Shown: positions 1 to 33,712 of the stretch, one piece after another
Numbering within the stretch: position 1 is the first letter of the stretch
How the letters are laid out: each line of letters opens with the position of its first letter
IMG/VR virus record: IMGVR_UViG_3300021373_000346
Span: 1 to 33,712 of that record
Source of the DNA: a virus
Length of the DNA stretch: 33,712 bases
Strand: one strand, 5' to 3'
Program-made: the position numbers and the translations under genes
The notes under the pieces: generated by a model
What the model was told of the DNA's origin: nothing
The model's database searches: none
Seen by the model: the letters and a program-made list of their open reading frames with translations, nothing else

Positions 1-108
1 TGGATGCACACATGCTGACACTGTAGCTAATACATGGGCAAAGCACACAACCAATGTCAATGTAGAAGGCAGCGCAGCCAAGATACAAGCAGGGCTTGAA
101 GCATTTCT
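1..108. repeat. Terminal redundancy, left copy
   Basis: These 108 bases match the last 108 bases of the window with two differences, at 13 (t here, c at 33617) and 91 (a here, g at 33695). Both fall in third codon positions of the DUF932-like gene (His and Ala codons) and change no residue. The overlap closes the contig into a circle. It reflects either circular permutation with terminal redundancy or a direct terminal repeat, and the sequence alone cannot separate these. Confidence 0.95.
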
Positions 109-3773: not shown

Positions 3774-4568
3774 ATGAATAGAATTGGATTTCTTGGCGGC
3801 TCAGATATGCGCCGCATTATGGATGGCGATTGGATATCGCTATGGGAACAGAAGACAGGACGCTCTGAGCCTGACGATTTATCTACAAACCTAGCTGTGC
3901 AGCTTGGCATACATACTGAATCATTCAACATCGAATGGTTCAAAGATAATGTGCAAGCTGAGATTACACACGAGCAGCATGAGTTCATGCTCAACTGGTA
4001 CAACATACCACTCAAGGGTCAGGTCGATGGCATGCTCAAGCTGCAAGACCCTAACGATAAAATAAATATTCTTGAGTGCAAGCACACATACGAGATGAAC
4101 AAGATGGAGTCTTGTCTCAGTATGTACATGCCACAAATGCAATTCTATATGTGGTTAGCACAAGCAGACGGATGTTACCTGTCAGTTATCTTTGGCAACA
4201 GACGTTGGGAATGTGTGTATGTCTCAAAGGATTGGGACTATATCAAAAGAATGCAAGTGCATATCACTGAGTTCTGGAGGCATGTTACTGAGAACACACG
4301 CCCTTTCGGTGACAACGAAGTGCCACCTGTATCTATAGATAAGATCAAGGTCGATGGCATGACCAAGCGTGACGCATCAAGCGACAATGAATTCATTAGC
4401 AGATGCCATGACTATATCGAACAAGAGAAATCAGCAAAGCTATTTGAGTCAGCCAAGTCTGACCTCAAAGCTATGGTTGGTGACGATGAGCGAGAAGTAT
4501 ACTGTGATCTTCTAGCCATCAAACGCGATAAGCGCGGATCATTACGCATCACAGTCAAGGAGAACTAA
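3774..4568 (+). CDS. YqaJ-family (lambda-type) recombination exonuclease (264 aa)
   Basis: The family pattern is clear: GGSD at residues 8-11, W and KTG near 24-29, E49 in GIHTES, GQVDGM with D85, and ILECKH with E101 and K103 as the PD-(D/E)XK catalytic core, then a PQMQFYMWL helix. Such enzymes resect double-strand ends 5' to 3', leaving 3' single strands for an annealing protein. It is preceded by its own promoter and by the extended ribosome-binding element, and is followed one base later by the ERF gene, a typical exonuclease-annealase pair. The length is normal. Confidence 0.88.
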   Translation: MNRIGFLGGSDMRRIMDGDWISLWEQKTGRSEPDDLSTNLAVQLGIHTESFNIEWFKDNVQAEITHEQHEFMLNWYNIPLKGQVDGMLKLQDPNDKINILECKHTYEMNKMESCLSMYMPQMQFYMWLAQADGCYLSVIFGNRRWECVYVSKDWDYIKRMQVHITEFWRHVTENTRPFGDNEVPPVSIDKIKVDGMTKRDASSDNEFISRCHDYIEQEKSAKLFESAKSDLKAMVGDDEREVYCDLLAIKRDKRGSLRITVKEN

Positions 4569-4569
4569 A

Positions 4570-5025
4570 ATGGAACTAAAGAACATAACCAAAGCACTCA
4601 TCCAGTTTCACAACACTGGAGCAGCAGCTAAAAAGACTGCAAAAAATCCATTCTTCAAATCAAACTATGCCAGTCTTGAAGAAGTTATTGAGACTGTCAG
4701 AGTGGAGGCTGGCAAGTGTGGCCTTACATTCACGCAGCCTGTTGACTTTAATGAGCATCACATCTTTGTAACTACAATTGTTATGCATGAGTCGGGCGAG
4801 TATATAACTGGACGCACACCTGTCCTAGTCAAAGACCCTACTGATCCACAGAAAATGGGCAGCGGTATCACATACGCTAAACGCTATGGCTTGCAGTCTG
4901 CATTCGGACTGCCATCAGAAGATGATGACGGTAACTCAGCCAGCATGCCCAACCCCAAGGTGACTAAGGTTAAAAGCATCAAGCTAGATGACAGTGGCAG
5001 ATTGCCAGCAGAGGAGAAGTGGTAA
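4570..5025 (+). CDS. ERF-type single-strand annealing protein (151 aa)
   Basis: The motifs are NPFFKSNYASLEEVI near residue 26 and GSGITYAKRYGLQSAFGL near residue 97, then an acidic DDDGN segment, all hallmarks of the ERF superfamily. ERF proteins anneal complementary single strands and can circularise or concatenate phage DNA. The C-terminal tail is short compared with P22 Erf. The gene overlaps the next one (TAATG). Together with the upstream YqaJ exonuclease it would act as the phage recombinase, and may generate concatemers for packaging. Confidence 0.9.
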   Translation: MELKNITKALIQFHNTGAAAKKTAKNPFFKSNYASLEEVIETVRVEAGKCGLTFTQPVDFNEHHIFVTTIVMHESGEYITGRTPVLVKDPTDPQKMGSGITYAKRYGLQSAFGLPSEDDDGNSASMPNPKVTKVKSIKLDDSGRLPAEEKW

Positions 5026-5393
5026 TGTTTAATAACAAAAAAGAATTGCAAGACATCCAGCGCAGACTCAACCACATCGAAGCAAACATCAACAAAGTTA
5101 TATGGATGCTAAGAGAAAAGCCTGAGAAAACAATTGATCAAGCTTTCGTAAATCAATTTGAGTCAGAAGTAGAGCAAGAATATAAACGATTAGGAAGAAA
5201 GAAAAGGACTTACCCTATGAAGTTTGTAGCTTGCGTAATGGGTAGGTACAAAACAATTGATGAGATGTGCAATGAACTACAGTTAACAGAAAGTTCAGCG
5301 CGTACCTACCTTAAGCTTGCCAAGAAAGATGGCATTGAATTTAACACACGCAGATCAGGTAAAAAATTATCTTACAAAGTGAGGAAAATCTAA
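5025..5393 (+). CDS. Early helix-turn-helix protein with a capsid-N-terminus-like segment (122 aa)
   Basis: The ATG at 5025 is chosen (GAGGAG at 5011-5016); a GTG two codons upstream is too close to it. Three parts are visible: an N-terminal coiled coil (about residues 4-32), a segment at 36-61 (TIDQAFVNQFESEV, then Y, R, G, K, R), and a helix-turn-helix (about 75-105; TIDEMCNELQLTESSARTYL) with a basic tail. The middle segment matches residues 4-29 of the major capsid protein at 16 of 26 positions. The product is probably a DNA-binding regulator; why it carries a capsid-like segment is unknown. Confidence 0.75.
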   Translation: MFNNKKELQDIQRRLNHIEANINKVIWMLREKPEKTIDQAFVNQFESEVEQEYKRLGRKKRTYPMKFVACVMGRYKTIDEMCNELQLTESSARTYLKLAKKDGIEFNTRRSGKKLSYKVRKI

Positions 5394-5809
5394 TGAGCGA
5401 ATATGATAACACTAACCGCGGCGCAGCCTTCAAACCATTCCCAGAGCAGCAGTTTATCCTGCAAGGTAAACTCAACATCATGGGCGAAGACGGCCAAGTT
5501 GCACTCATCATGGCTGAGTCACGAGATGGCAACAAGCGCATTGAAGTATTTCAGAAAGTTGGATGCTTGTTTCCCAACGACAAAAAGGGCAACGAGAAAG
5601 CACCAGACTACAGCGGCCCACTAGACGGATTGCATCAAGACTGGAAGATTGCAGCTTGGAAAGAAATGAAAGGCGACAACGCATACATGTCGCTGAATGT
5701 TTCAGAGTACAAACCCAAGCCAGTAGATGATGAAATACCTGAGTTCGGTGACAACATCAAAGATGAAAATGTGACTAGCAAAGTAGAGCCAGAAGATGTA
5801 CCATTCTAA
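5393..5809 (+). CDS. ssDNA-binding-like protein with acidic tail (138 aa)
   Basis: The body is a predicted beta-rich, OB-fold-like domain (QFILQGKLNIMG, QVALIMAESRDG, WKIAAWKEMKGDNAYMSLNV). The C-terminal 35 residues are acidic and end PEDVPF, like the protein-interaction tips of SSB proteins. There is some resemblance to DUF736-type small proteins, so the assignment is not certain. It closes the recombination group, overlapping the upstream gene by one base, and is followed by the stem-loop and terminator of the rightward block. Role inferred: coating resected single strands for the ERF protein. Confidence 0.65.
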   Translation: MSEYDNTNRGAAFKPFPEQQFILQGKLNIMGEDGQVALIMAESRDGNKRIEVFQKVGCLFPNDKKGNEKAPDYSGPLDGLHQDWKIAAWKEMKGDNAYMSLNVSEYKPKPVDDEIPEFGDNIKDENVTSKVEPEDVPF

Positions 5810-8614: not shown

Positions 8615-9499
8615 CTATTGGGCGTCTGTTAAGCGAGTAAAAACAAGACCAGTAACAGTCTCATTGGTGCTTCCTTTAATCTTTGAACCGCTTGAGATTG
8701 AACCAGCATTAAAGCGTACTTTAACTTGTGATGTATTTGTTACGTTTATAAATGCAATTCCCGAAGCAGAGTTTTCAGCAGCATTGCTAGCACTTGAATT
8801 TGCAGTAGTTGCATTTGAGTAACTACTGTTGTCAGTGGTAAACTGACAAGCAAAAACAATATTATCATTAGCAATAGGATTTGATTTGTAAAAAAACTCT
8901 ACTCTATAAAGTCCAGTAAAAGGAAAAGTGAATACTCCAGAACTTACAGACATTCCATTCAAGGGAGCAAACGCTGCATGTTGCACCCTTCTTAAATTTG
9001 AACTTATCGGGGTTTGATTAGACGTAATGTCGGCGGTAAGTTCAAACATATCGAATACATGACTGCTATCCATCGAGACACGGTTTGAACTATCTATACT
9101 AATTGCCGTTCCGCTAGTGCTGCTTGATGAGATACCAGCAACACCCTGCACACCAGCCGCTAACTTAGCAGCAGTCACTGCACCATTGGCAATCTTATTG
9201 GTAGTCACAGCACCATCAGTAACTGAACCCACACCAAGCACATCACCAAGAGCCACCACAAAGTCGATGCTGTCGCTGCTTGTCAGTGCGCTGTCAAAGA
9301 TGAGGTTGCTGCCTGATACTGTGAAGCTGTCTTGTGGTGCTTGGATAACACCGTTGAGGGAAACCAGAAGCTGATTAGCAGTCTCTGGGTAGTATGCAGC
9401 AGACCCTAGCGTAAGAGCGTAGGTGTCCGTTGCAGAGGCTGTTAAGGCATCCAGCTTGTGGAACCCACCGCCTACTGGGGATTTACCTATATATGGCAT
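8615..9499 (-). CDS. Tail fibre protein with C1q-like C-terminus (294 aa)
   Basis: The N-terminal domain (PYIGKSPVGGGFHKLDALT, LLVSLNGVIQAPQDSF) is a common fibre-attachment module. A stalk segment has VTDGAVTTNKIANGAVTAAK. The C-terminal domain includes GMSVSSGVFTFPFTGLYRV, the core of a C1q/TNF-like jelly roll. Such tips often bind host surface sugars or proteins. The start overlaps the preceding stop (TAATG) with GGGAG upstream. Trimer formation is inferred from the family. Confidence 0.78.
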   Translation of the reverse strand: MPYIGKSPVGGGFHKLDALTASATDTYALTLGSAAYYPETANQLLVSLNGVIQAPQDSFTVSGSNLIFDSALTSSDSIDFVVALGDVLGVGSVTDGAVTTNKIANGAVTAAKLAAGVQGVAGISSSSTSGTAISIDSSNRVSMDSSHVFDMFELTADITSNQTPISSNLRRVQHAAFAPLNGMSVSSGVFTFPFTGLYRVEFFYKSNPIANDNIVFACQFTTDNSSYSNATTANSSASNAAENSASGIAFINVTNTSQVKVRFNAGSISSGSKIKGSTNETVTGLVFTRLTDAQ

Positions 9500-10237: not shown

Positions 10238-11065
10238 CTATTCGTCAGTTGTGTAGGTTACTGAAACAATGACATCTGCCTGATCATCAGTAAAATTAGA
10301 AACATTTAAAGTTACATCGGTGGTTCCATCTCGCAGACGCTCAAATCTTATGTAAGAAAGACCGCCAATAACTCTAACCACTACTTGTGTTGAGGAAGAT
10401 ATATTTTGCCGCCACGCTGAACCCATAGCATTTGCATTTGGAGTATAAGGTAAGTTTCTAATTAACGCTGCGCCAGTGCCATTTAAACCAGTAGTATTTA
10501 TATCACTAAATCTACAAGTAACAAAAACTAACGCTCCAATTTTTACATATTGAGCACTATTGGCATCCGCTGAAGTAGAAGATACGTTTCCACCAGTTGC
10601 GGCATCTGCAAACTCTGGTGTCCAAGTGCCTTGAGAGAAAGAACTCAGGATATCTGTACCAGTACCTAGTTTAATACCAGCGTCAGCAGTGATCACACCT
10701 GTGCTATCTAATGTTCCTGCAATGTCTATGTTGGTGTCTAGCTTTGCGCTAGTAACATTGCCATCAATAATTTTGGCAGTGCTAACAGACGCATCCGGCG
10801 GTACTGTCGTTTGCAAAGCCAGTGAGTTATACACTACATAAATGTCATCAGTAGCTACAACAGAACCAGTCAGTGTTACCGCTGTGCCTACTACTGAGTA
10901 AGCTTCAGTAGGCTCTTGCCGCACGTTATTAATAAACAAGTCAATGCCTTCAGCACTGGCTACAGCATGTGTCAGCGTCAGGCTAGTGCCAGTCGCACCT
11001 GTCAAGTCTTGCTTGGCTGGTACTTGGCTAAAGCCTTCAGTCTGTTGATTGCCTACATAACCCAT
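10238..11065 (-). CDS. Tail fibre protein (275 aa)
   Basis: The N-terminal domain (MGYVGNQQTEGFSQVPAKQD, GIDLFINNVRQEPTEAY) is the same class of attachment module as in the 8615-9499 gene. It is followed by a stalk (VSTAKIIDGNVTSAKLDTNI) and a C-terminal beta domain beginning SFSQGTWTPEFADAATG, a pattern seen at the end of many phage fibres. AGGAG lies eight bases before the start. It is one of several parallel fibre subunits. Confidence 0.75.
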   Translation of the reverse strand: MGYVGNQQTEGFSQVPAKQDLTGATGTSLTLTHAVASAEGIDLFINNVRQEPTEAYSVVGTAVTLTGSVVATDDIYVVYNSLALQTTVPPDASVSTAKIIDGNVTSAKLDTNIDIAGTLDSTGVITADAGIKLGTGTDILSSFSQGTWTPEFADAATGGNVSSTSADANSAQYVKIGALVFVTCRFSDINTTGLNGTGAALIRNLPYTPNANAMGSAWRQNISSSTQVVVRVIGGLSYIRFERLRDGTTDVTLNVSNFTDDQADVIVSVTYTTDE

Positions 11066-22868: not shown

Positions 22869-23681
22869 CTAGTTGTTGTCAAGGACTTCATAGATACCAT
22901 TGTCATCAATAACAATAGAACCCATGGACATCATTGAGGTTGCAAGGTGTGACACACGCTCTGGGACATAGTTCAGTTCAGTCGTAACGTCTGCACCGAT
23001 ACCAAGTCCTACAGATGATGTGTGATACGCCATATTCTTACCAGCAGTAACGGCTGATGTAGAGAAAATCTTGAAGCCAAGAAACTCTTTCATTGTCATG
23101 CCGCCAGCAAATGGTAGGTTTTGCTCACCAACAAAGTCACTTGAAGCAAACTCAGTAATGTTGAACAAGTCAGCATAACCTGCTGGGTGCATCGCAAGAT
23201 AACGCCCACCATCTTCTGGGATGTTAGCTGAACCAAATGTTTCAAACAAGCTAAGTAGATCAGCTTTAGAAACAGCGGAACCAGCAGCACCAATTTGAGT
23301 TGTGTTTGCACCAGCATCCATAGCAGTGATAAGAATCTCATCAGTCTTGCGACCAAGGGCAGCAGCAGCAGATTTTGCTACAGCTTGACGCTCATCAATG
23401 TTTGTCTTCAATTCATCTAGCTTGTCGATATACTCGGCAGCATAGAAATCAGACATTGTTGCTTCTACGTTGGTGTGTGCCAACTCCATTGGAGTTACCA
23501 TACCGTTTCGTGATTTAGTTGAAGCAGAGCCTGTTCCGATCTTTTGGAATCGAACAGTGTTCCCACGGACGCTTGATACAGTACGCACAGTGTTCCGCAG
23601 TTTAGAACCCATGCGCTGATAAGCCATGTGAACCTCTGATTCAAACTGTTTAATAAAGGCGGTGTCAATTGTATTCGCCAT
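22869..23681 (-). CDS. Major capsid protein (270 aa)
   Basis: The N-terminus (TIDTAFIKQFESEV, AYQRMGSKLRNTV) and later DFYAAEYIDKLDELKTNIDE and GGRYLAMHPAGYADL are familiar from HK97-fold capsid proteins of marine podoviruses. The size is modest, about 29 kDa. It is placed after scaffold and before the tail tubular genes, as expected. Residues 4-29 closely match a segment of the early protein at 5025-5393. GAGG lies nine bases upstream of the ATG. The 88-base leader probably carries its own promoter or processing site, allowing high expression. Confidence 0.9.
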   Translation of the reverse strand: MANTIDTAFIKQFESEVHMAYQRMGSKLRNTVRTVSSVRGNTVRFQKIGTGSASTKSRNGMVTPMELAHTNVEATMSDFYAAEYIDKLDELKTNIDERQAVAKSAAAALGRKTDEILITAMDAGANTTQIGAAGSAVSKADLLSLFETFGSANIPEDGGRYLAMHPAGYADLFNITEFASSDFVGEQNLPFAGGMTMKEFLGFKIFSTSAVTAGKNMAYHTSSVGLGIGADVTTELNYVPERVSHLATSMMSMGSIVIDDNGIYEVLDNN

Positions 23682-23769: not shown

Positions 23770-24309
23770 TCAATGCATTACAGGCCGTTCTAGGTAATAA
23801 ACATTATTTTTTCGTTCTCTGCAACGCACAAAACGCATCATGTTATGACCGTGAATATTATAGACCTCTTCATCAAATATAAAACCACACCATGTTAACC
23901 ACATGATTGTGTCAACATGATCTTGCGGAACAAAGTTTTCTACAACCTCATATTCGCCCTGCAATATATCTATTGCTGGCTTGCAACCGCGCAAAAAAAT
24001 ACGATAGTTTTCATTAACGCCGCCAGTGCCGAGCATCCAAACTCTGCCAACACCCTCTGAAACAGGCACAGTTCCGCACATAGCTATAACAGTTTCGTTA
24101 AATTTTATAGCATAGGTTCTGCTATCTTTTACCGTAAACGGCTCTAAGAGAGCCTCTAGCGGCGTTAAACCATATATAAGGCATTCTCTAGCGTCATACA
24201 TTCTAAGGCTGTCAGCGATCATTCTAGCGTGATCTACGTTAGCTTCTACTAATGACAGCTCACCAATGCGTCCAACTTCCTTATCCATATAGACGTTTGA
24301 AGCCAGCAT
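23770..24309 (-). CDS. GNAT-like internal virion/assembly protein (T7 gp13-like, 179 aa)
   Basis: The protein looks like a compact acyltransferase fold: ANVDHARMIADSLRMYDARE, TYAIKFNETVIAMCGTVPV, GRVWMLGTGGVNENYRIFLR and VHDTI-like MWLTWCGFIFDEEVYNI. Similar GNAT-related proteins occupy this position in T7-like genomes (gp13). Catalytic activity is not assured. The start may be 24309 (overlap with scaffold, 29 bases) or 24288 (MDKEVGRIGEL); neither has a strong Shine-Dalgarno. Probable virion assembly factor. Confidence 0.7.
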   Translation of the reverse strand: MLASNVYMDKEVGRIGELSLVEANVDHARMIADSLRMYDARECLIYGLTPLEALLEPFTVKDSRTYAIKFNETVIAMCGTVPVSEGVGRVWMLGTGGVNENYRIFLRGCKPAIDILQGEYEVVENFVPQDHVDTIMWLTWCGFIFDEEVYNIHGHNMMRFVRCRERKNNVYYLERPVMH

Positions 24310-25006
24310 CTACTTCAGCAATGAATGTTTGATCTCGCTTAACTGGGTCGTGATACCTAGGGTCTAACATCATTTGATTCAGTTGATCTTGAGTGATGGT
24401 AGCCACAGCCTGACCATCAATAGCTGGCCCACCTTGCTGCATTGACTGCATCATAAACTCCAATGCTTCAATACCATCAGCAGTTTCACACATGCGTTCA
24501 ATGGCTGGAAGGTGTTGCTCTTCAAAAAACTGATTAGCAAATAAGCTTGCAGCTTCTTGTCTAGCTTCAGCATTGTCGCCCAGCTTAGAAACTTCCGCCT
24601 CATAGTCAGGCACATCAGCGTTAAGAGCTTCGGCATACATATTAATACCTTCTTCAAACTGCTCTTGGGTGTACCCATTTTCAAACGCAGTTTCAGACCA
24701 CCATTTAAGAAGCTCATTGTCAGTAGCCATTTGATCGTCAATTGTTTCCGGCAACTGATAGTCACCAGCAGTTTCTGGACGATTAGCAAACGCTTCATTA
24801 CTAAGCTCTTCAATGACAGCGTTGCGGATGTCTTCTTCTTTTTGACCAAGCTTTCCTTCAAGACTTGTATATGAATTTACCAAGTCCTCTGCTGTTTTAA
24901 ATTTTTCCGGCAACCAGTCTGGACGAGCCTGCTCATCTGTTTGCAGCAATGGATCGCCACCTTCAGTGACTACTCCAGAATCTTCTACTTGTGCTTCTTC
25001 GTTCAT
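24281..25006 (-). CDS. Scaffolding protein (241 aa)
   Basis: It is strongly acidic, with an N-terminal PDWLPEKFKTAEDLVNSYTS segment (about 29-48) that is a hallmark of podovirus scaffolds, helical central region and a C-terminal QLNQMMLDPRYHDPVKRDQT helix-turn-helix-like capsid-binding end. It directs procapsid assembly and leaves before maturation. GAGG precedes the ATG, which overlaps the preceding stop (ATGA). Located between portal and capsid genes as expected. Confidence 0.88.
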   Translation of the reverse strand: MNEEAQVEDSGVVTEGGDPLLQTDEQARPDWLPEKFKTAEDLVNSYTSLEGKLGQKEEDIRNAVIEELSNEAFANRPETAGDYQLPETIDDQMATDNELLKWWSETAFENGYTQEQFEEGINMYAEALNADVPDYEAEVSKLGDNAEARQEAASLFANQFFEEQHLPAIERMCETADGIEALEFMMQSMQQGGPAIDGQAVATITQDQLNQMMLDPRYHDPVKRDQTFIAEVDAGFKRLYG

Positions 25007-33161: not shown

Positions 33162-33712
33162 ATGGATGGAGTAACTGTTATAGGCAACAGCCTAGTAAAA
33201 GATAACTGGTCTTTCCCAGTAGAAACAGTCAACCTTACAGCAAGCAAAGACAATGACTGTAACCTGTATGATGTGCCGCAATCAATGGCACGAGCTATCA
33301 TGCGTACAGATACTAATGAAGTGCTTGGTGTTCATGGCTCTAAGTACAAAGCAATTAAGCATGACGATGTAGTTAACTCAGTCATGGATGCTGTCAGTCA
33401 ATCAAATGTATCTAAAGATTACGATACAAAAATTGAAATCTTTGATAACGGTGCCAAGCTACGAGGCACTATCGACTTCGCTGACCTAGTGATGGAGCCA
33501 GCAGTTGGTGACTATGTAAGATTCCGTGTCCAGTTCTTTAACTCATACGACAGTAGCTGGGCATTCCAACAATCAGCATTCGGCTTGCGCTTGTGGTGTC
33601 TTAATGGATGCACACACGCTGACACTGTAGCTAATACATGGGCAAAGCACACAACCAATGTCAATGTAGAAGGCAGCGCAGCCAAGATACAAGCGGGGCT
33701 TGAAGCATTTCT
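33162..33712 (+). CDS. DUF932 (phage/plasmid-like) protein, 5' part of the gene continuing at base 1
   Basis: The start (MDGVTVIGNSLVKDNWSF) follows the extended element at 33149-33159. Visible family features are YDVPQSMARAIMRTDTNEVL, LGVHGSKYKAIKHDDVV and DFADLVMEPAVGDYVRFRVQ, then SAFGLRLWCLNGC. The frame is open to the last base and rejoins the frame at base 2 through the terminal overlap, giving 290 residues in total. DUF932 proteins are widespread in phages and plasmids and their biochemical role is not established. Confidence 0.9.
   Translation, partial: MDGVTVIGNSLVKDNWSFPVETVNLTASKDNDCNLYDVPQSMARAIMRTDTNEVLGVHGSKYKAIKHDDVVNSVMDAVSQSNVSKDYDTKIEIFDNGAKLRGTIDFADLVMEPAVGDYVRFRVQFFNSYDSSWAFQQSAFGLRLWCLNGCTHADTVANTWAKHTTNVNVEGSAAKIQAGLEAF
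33605..33712. repeat. Terminal redundancy, right copy
   Basis: Copy of bases 1-108 with two silent differences (33617 c, 33695 g). Once one copy is removed, the unique genome is 33,604 bases. No gene or stop interrupts the junction, which lies in the middle of the DUF932-like gene, so the contig ends were set by assembly and not by a natural end of the genome. Confidence 0.95.

Follow-up and report, generated by a model that had tools for sequence, protein, structure and literature searches.

A segment homologous to the capsid N-terminal arm in an early, predicted DNA-binding protein of a phage recombination operon

We describe here a small protein of a marine phage, designated X, that is encoded within a recombination operon and carries a 26-residue segment homologous to the N-terminal arm (N-arm) of the major capsid protein (MCP), positioned between a coiled coil and a winged helix-turn-helix (HTH) domain. 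The window, by which we mean the whole stretch of DNA analysed, is a 33.7-kb IMG/VR virus record (33,712 nucleotides) with a GC content of 42%, and the features on which the argument depends are as follows.

3774 to 4568, plus strand: YqaJ/RecE-type exonuclease, operon neighbour (PF09588, 3e-8; PHROG 434, 2e-26)
4570 to 5025, plus strand: Erf-family single-strand annealing protein, directly upstream of X (PF04404, 9e-24)
5025 to 5393, plus strand: early protein X, 122 aa, with coiled coil, capsid-arm segment and winged HTH (open reading frame, translation and AlphaFold2 model)
5025 to 5117, plus strand: coiled-coil domain of X, residues 1-31, common to the whole family
5130 to 5207, plus strand: capsid N-arm-like segment of X, residues 36-61 (16/26 to MCP residues 4-29; E 5.6e-7; score matrix 44 bits)
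5211 to 5390, plus strand: winged HTH domain of X, residues 63-122 (AlphaFold2 pLDDT about 90; ArsR-like by Foldseek)
5393 to 5809, plus strand: SSB-like protein, directly downstream of X (PHROG 18154, 8e-8)
22869 to 23681, minus strand: MCP (PF19821, 2e-61 in Pfam; PHROG 3437)
23595 to 23672, minus strand: residues 4-29 of the MCP (N-arm), homologous to the segment in X and near-invariant across about 80 relatives
24281 to 25006, minus strand: T7-type scaffolding protein, the presumed partner (PF05396, 6e-10)

X, the product of the 5025-5393 open reading frame (MFNNKKELQDIQRRLNHIEANINKVIWMLREKPEKTIDQAFVNQFESEVEQEYKRLGRKKRTYPMKFVACVMGRYKTIDEMCNELQLTESSARTYLKLAKKDGIEFNTRRSGKKLSYKVRKI), lies third in a compact operon with the order exonuclease, Erf, X and SSB-like protein, and its start and stop overlap both neighbouring genes, with TAATG at both junctions; the operon is referred to as early, as read from its gene content and strand. 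Residues 36-61 of X (5130-5207, plus strand; TIDQAFVNQFESEVEQEYKRLGRKKR) pair without gaps with residues 4-29 of the MCP (23595-23672, minus strand; TIDTAFIKQFESEVHMAYQRMGSKLR), with 16 of 26 positions identical, and the match, coordinates and strands are exactly those of the original prediction, which was made from the DNA sequence alone. In an all-against-all BLASTP comparison of the window ORFs this pair has an E value of 5.6e-7 and is the sole match between an early and a late gene. On a score matrix built from 48 distinct capsid segments the X segment scores 44 bits, the runner-up among the 15,365 window 25-mers scores -20, and the top score from 40 shuffled proteomes is -12.5. A profile of the early orthologues finds the N-terminus of the capsid protein in every one of 50 phage records, and the agreement between X and the MCP extends beyond the helix core (TID.AF). 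By these comparisons the homology of the X segment to the N-arm of the PF19821 capsids is confirmed above the level of chance, and the breadth of the capsid family suggests that the direction of transfer was from capsid to X.

The two segments are identical at 44 of 78 nucleotides, 11 of the 16 identical residues are specified by different codons, and the differences are distributed 9, 5 and 20 among the three codon positions, all of which argues that the X segment is not a recent copy of the MCP, as had been proposed at the outset. A recent DNA duplication is thus rejected as its origin, given this identity together with the saturation of silent sites.

Short helices can resemble one another for trivial reasons, and chance similarity, or convergent evolution of an amphipathic helix, might account for a segment of only 26 residues that is predicted to be helical, particularly as the C-terminus of the scaffolding protein has a weak F..EV...[FY].RL resemblance to two of the early alleles (Z about 4). 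We searched 2.9 million viral contigs, with two forms of the pattern, and about 85,000 genomes (257 Gb) with degenerate patterns for F..QFE.[DE]V...Y, and all of the matches are PF19821-type capsid N-termini, X proteins, or a few evident chance matches (L250, L320/L328, L321 and L332). The concern that the segment is a generic helical motif of many unrelated proteins is therefore dismissed by both viral-contig scans and the genome scan. Likewise, when the segment of the L165 relative was compared with 50,697 annotated phage records at E values up to 10, the best match was the capsid of Pelagibacter phage Hodr (E 0.03), which is also the nearest annotated capsid to the window MCP (54% identical), the only others being one in MT838907, at the position of its capsid match (E 3), and a weak one in a Pseudomonas phage (E 6). 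The specificity in these very large scans, the separation of 44 from -20 bits, the agreement at TID.AF outside the core and the occurrence of the segment in two branches of the X family make chance so improbable an explanation that we consider it refuted in practice.

The AlphaFold2 model of X, run on 21 family members, has a mean pLDDT of 83 and predicts a helix at residues 4-30, a helix within the segment at 37-56, and a winged HTH at 65-121. Confidence is moderate in the segment (pLDDT about 62-78), which is thus modelled as helical in the context of X, and high in the HTH (about 90). The winged HTH fold is indicated both by AlphaFold2 and by Foldseek, in which ArsR-type regulators are nearest with weak E values (about 1e-3); several X members have weak Pfam matches to HTH_29, HTH_28 or HTH_11, and the window X falls below the curated Pfam cut-offs for HTH families. 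The best PDB matches of the X family profile in the coil region are designed coiled coils, and searches of PHROGs, Pfam and PDB sequences for a name for X returned nothing beyond weak HTH or coil matches. X is a predicted DNA-binding protein, and the fusion of coil, segment and DNA-binding fold is as first described. Its C-terminal domain has the same fold as the small winged-HTH phage regulators, but the combination of coil and N-arm linker occurs in none of the matched library families. From the PF19821/PHROG 3437 MCPs, the source of the 26-residue N-arm, X has only this piece; the remainder of the HK97 fold (P domain, A domain and E-loop) is absent, and the head-assembly interface motif lies downstream of the predicted coil, and so on a foreign, putative oligomerisation domain.

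To survey the X family, SSB was used as an anchor and the ORF directly upstream was read in about 100 loci, with an additional scan for a second branch. This gave about 44 distinct X proteins, 43 by pattern plus L287, which that pattern missed. Close relatives were found on only four IMG/VR contigs (80-100% identity); no X relative was found in the 50,697 annotated phage records, and the capsid-arm graft was found in no annotated phage. The family is modular, with a coiled coil of about 30 residues and, in most members, a linker and winged HTH. Where the capsid is closest to that of the window (MCP 96%; L126-L142), the locus encodes only a 42-46 aa coil, and the HTH and linker are dispensable in these relatives. 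These coil-only proteins occupy the same place between the annealing protein and SSB and have the same kind of coil, but lack both the linker segment and the HTH of the window X.

The capsid-like segment is present in the linker of five of the approximately 44 distinct members, in two branches. The carriers in the FNNKK branch are window/L001, L002 and L003/L004, and those in the LGINKRLD branch are L165/L271 and L287. About twenty LGINKRLD sisters have the same coil and a short linker (mostly TVPKQVPSVVVHKP) without the segment, and at this position L271 and L287 contain Y.KGKKP..TIEDAFIKQFE.EV...Y.RL. Recurrence in related genomes, which the original prediction named as support, is seen, and the refuting case that it named, absence of the segment from orthologues, holds in part: the close orthologues have the segment, but most of the family lacks it. 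The segment is, as judged from these sequences, an accessory cassette rather than a core part of X. Near-complete relatives that share the capsid N-arm and the scaffold C-terminus are without the segment, so head assembly in these relatives is independent of it. The absence of the segment, or even of the HTH, from relatives whose capsid and scaffold are nearly identical also disfavours a coupling of head assembly to gene control as an essential function of X. The window record is the only one in which a segment-bearing X and its own capsid are on one contig. A search of 43 related records with the segment profile yielded no second capsid-arm copy besides the known L165 record, and a search for a second copy in 31 genomes gave no clear non-capsid full-length match.

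Comparison of close alleles shows that the segment moves as a unit. The X genes of L002 and L003 do not differ in the coil (0/93) or the HTH (0/183; 0/276 together) but differ at 19 of 78 nucleotides in the segment, a clustering with a hypergeometric p of 5e-14. Silent sites differ at 5 of 15 positions in the segment and at 0 of 54 outside it (p 3e-4), which points to exchange between old alleles rather than to fresh hypermutation. In the other branch, L165/L271 and L287 have the coil and segment in common but different HTH halves, and these two patterns together indicate that the segment recombines on both sides. In a tree of amino acid sequences a single split separates the five early segments from the 48 capsid segments, with a support of 0.91 on an alignment of only 25 residues, which is only suggestive of monophyly; a single capture followed by spread, and a single ancestral presence with losses, both fit.

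Between the early branches, the core of the segment from F6 to L21 has pS values of 0.76-1.27, at or near saturation, and pN values of 0.17-0.22. Since F..QFE.EV...Y.RL is kept while silent sites are saturated, selection maintains the segment core, and the suggestion of an old exchange preserved at the protein level is supported. F6, Q9, F10, E11, E13, V14, Y18, R20 and L21 are kept in all five early alleles, and all except L21 are invariant or nearly so in the capsids (E13 can be D). The early copies retain a hydrophobic stripe and the acidic QFE.E face, whereas H15, A17, Q19 and L25, which are invariant in capsids, are lost or free.

These patterns bear on a rather plain alternative, in which a helix was gained by illegitimate recombination in an indel-prone linker and serves only as a rigid spacer or as an additional helix for dimerisation, binding neither capsid nor scaffold. 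The X linker is indeed an indel hotspot, with inserts of 6 and 11 residues at the same point in L281/L283 and L284-L286; most X members do without the segment, which is the most variable part of X among close orthologues, and the loss of the four capsid-invariant residues is also compatible with such a role. However, a spacer does not need QFE.EV, and five alleles with saturated silent sites show no change at the surface polar residues Q9, E11, E13 and R20 or on the hydrophobic face. We therefore consider the spacer somewhat unlikely.

We tentatively favour, at a little less than an even chance, the view that the segment is a captured mimic of the N-arm that binds the N-arm's own partner, probably the scaffold, and is accessory and not needed for head assembly. 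On this view, capsid DNA was captured long ago, the N-arm piece now in the X linker was then exchanged between lineages of the early gene, and it has been retained because its helix still binds something that the capsid N-arm binds. The first candidate for this partner would be the scaffolding protein of the phage itself (24281-25006), through its C-terminal helix, and the second a groove in the capsid subunit. In phage P22 the coat N-arm (residues 2-30) is an alpha-helix in the procapsid that is gripped by the scaffold C-terminus, its acidic residues D14, E15 and E18 contacting scaffold R293/K296 (PMC9965877); in 80alpha the scaffold C-terminal helix packs against the N-arm helix of the capsid protein (PMC5644958), and the N-terminal helix of the SPP1 MCP is also bound by scaffold (PMC6813328). 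The N-arm is thus a scaffold-binding element in all three phages, and the X segment retains QFE.EV, a core of acidic and aromatic residues, such that scaffold sensing or binding is, by analogy, the proposed role most consistent with known capsid N-arm biology. Any such interface is presumably partial, because H15, A17, Q19 and L25 are lost.

The window scaffolding protein ends in ...FIAEVDAGFKRLYG, which is conserved among relatives. This C-terminus (24281-24360, minus strand) weakly resembles the early segment QFESEVEQEYKRLG, a post hoc observation with Z about 4 for two alleles. As a source of the segment it is rejected, with Z scores of 1.3-4.6 compared with 12.6-18.2 for the capsid. An AlphaFold model of the MCP alone has a pLDDT of 35 and is too poor to use.

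If the segment is such an N-arm mimic, X would be a coil-mediated oligomer presenting several mimics beside a DNA-binding domain, and, while sitting on phage DNA, it could act as a sink or a sensor for scaffold or for capsid parts not yet assembled. A more specific proposal, and an unlikely one in our estimation, is that a diversifying copy of the capsid N-arm beside a DNA-binding domain acts either as a sensor of scaffold or capsid that links head assembly with DNA recombination or with early transcription, or as a pre-emptive decoy against capsid-sensing immunity. Taken by itself, the decoy role, in which an early, variable piece of capsid occupies or adapts to a host capsid sensor before the real capsid is made, seems quite improbable. 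Bacterial capsid sensors do exist, the Thoeris proteins ThsB1/B2 binding the 80alpha capsid protein (PMC11312562), and an arms race would be expected to give what is seen for the segment: a place in an early operon, a patchy distribution as an accessory element, and diverse alleles. But no known sensor reads the N-arm, the capsid N-arm is near-invariant and so is not escaping, and a decoy has no need of a DNA-binding domain.

A precedent for the borrowing of a head-assembly interface is CpmB, the capsid-morphogenesis protein of the Staphylococcus pathogenicity island SaPI1, in which the RIIK helix-and-hook motif of the scaffold competes at the scaffold-capsid interface (PMC5644958). X too is a small protein encoded outside the head genes that carries a short head-assembly motif. 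CpmB, however, is made by a satellite and copies the scaffold side, whereas X is encoded by the phage in a recombination operon, has a winged HTH, and copies the capsid (N-arm) side, for which binding is presumed. Because CpmB demonstrates that a short borrowed motif can redirect the assembly of another phage (PMC5644958), X might similarly poison capsid assembly of a competitor, phage or satellite, that infects the same cell and builds the same type of capsid. Self-poisoning would be expected, however, since this N-arm is also that of the window phage's capsid, and we regard such interference as highly improbable.

X is a clear case in which an interface helix of a structural protein has been inserted into a phage protein of the early, non-structural class, where it is maintained by selection and swapped as a cassette between alleles. 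X differs from the known borrowers of head-assembly interfaces in that the capsid side rather than the scaffold side has been taken. If the graft does bind scaffold or capsid, it would constitute a small link of early DNA metabolism or gene control to head assembly; alternatively, if the decoy reading were true, it would be a decoy of a new type, aimed at immunity that senses capsid. The X family is a natural set in which the same coil occurs with and without the segment.

Additional observations were made at this locus and elsewhere in the window. The C-terminal tail of Erf (4935-5025) is a second hypervariable patch at the locus, and in L002 and L003 the tails (L002 coordinates 4965-5054) are about 45% identical, most of the flanking DNA being more than 90% identical. 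In L088, L089 and L176-L213 the annealing protein upstream of SSB is exchanged for an unrelated-looking one (SDP.[YF]LK.V.FG.RSFTAIDP...), although SSB, and the coil protein where present, are retained. The one further match besides X and the MCP in the window BLASTP comparison is between two late genes on the minus strand, 8615-9499 and 10238-11065, which have a similar stretch of 66 residues (33% identity, E 3e-4). Finally, matches in L002 and L004 suggest that window positions 1-108 and 33605-33712 form a direct terminal repeat of about 108 bp.
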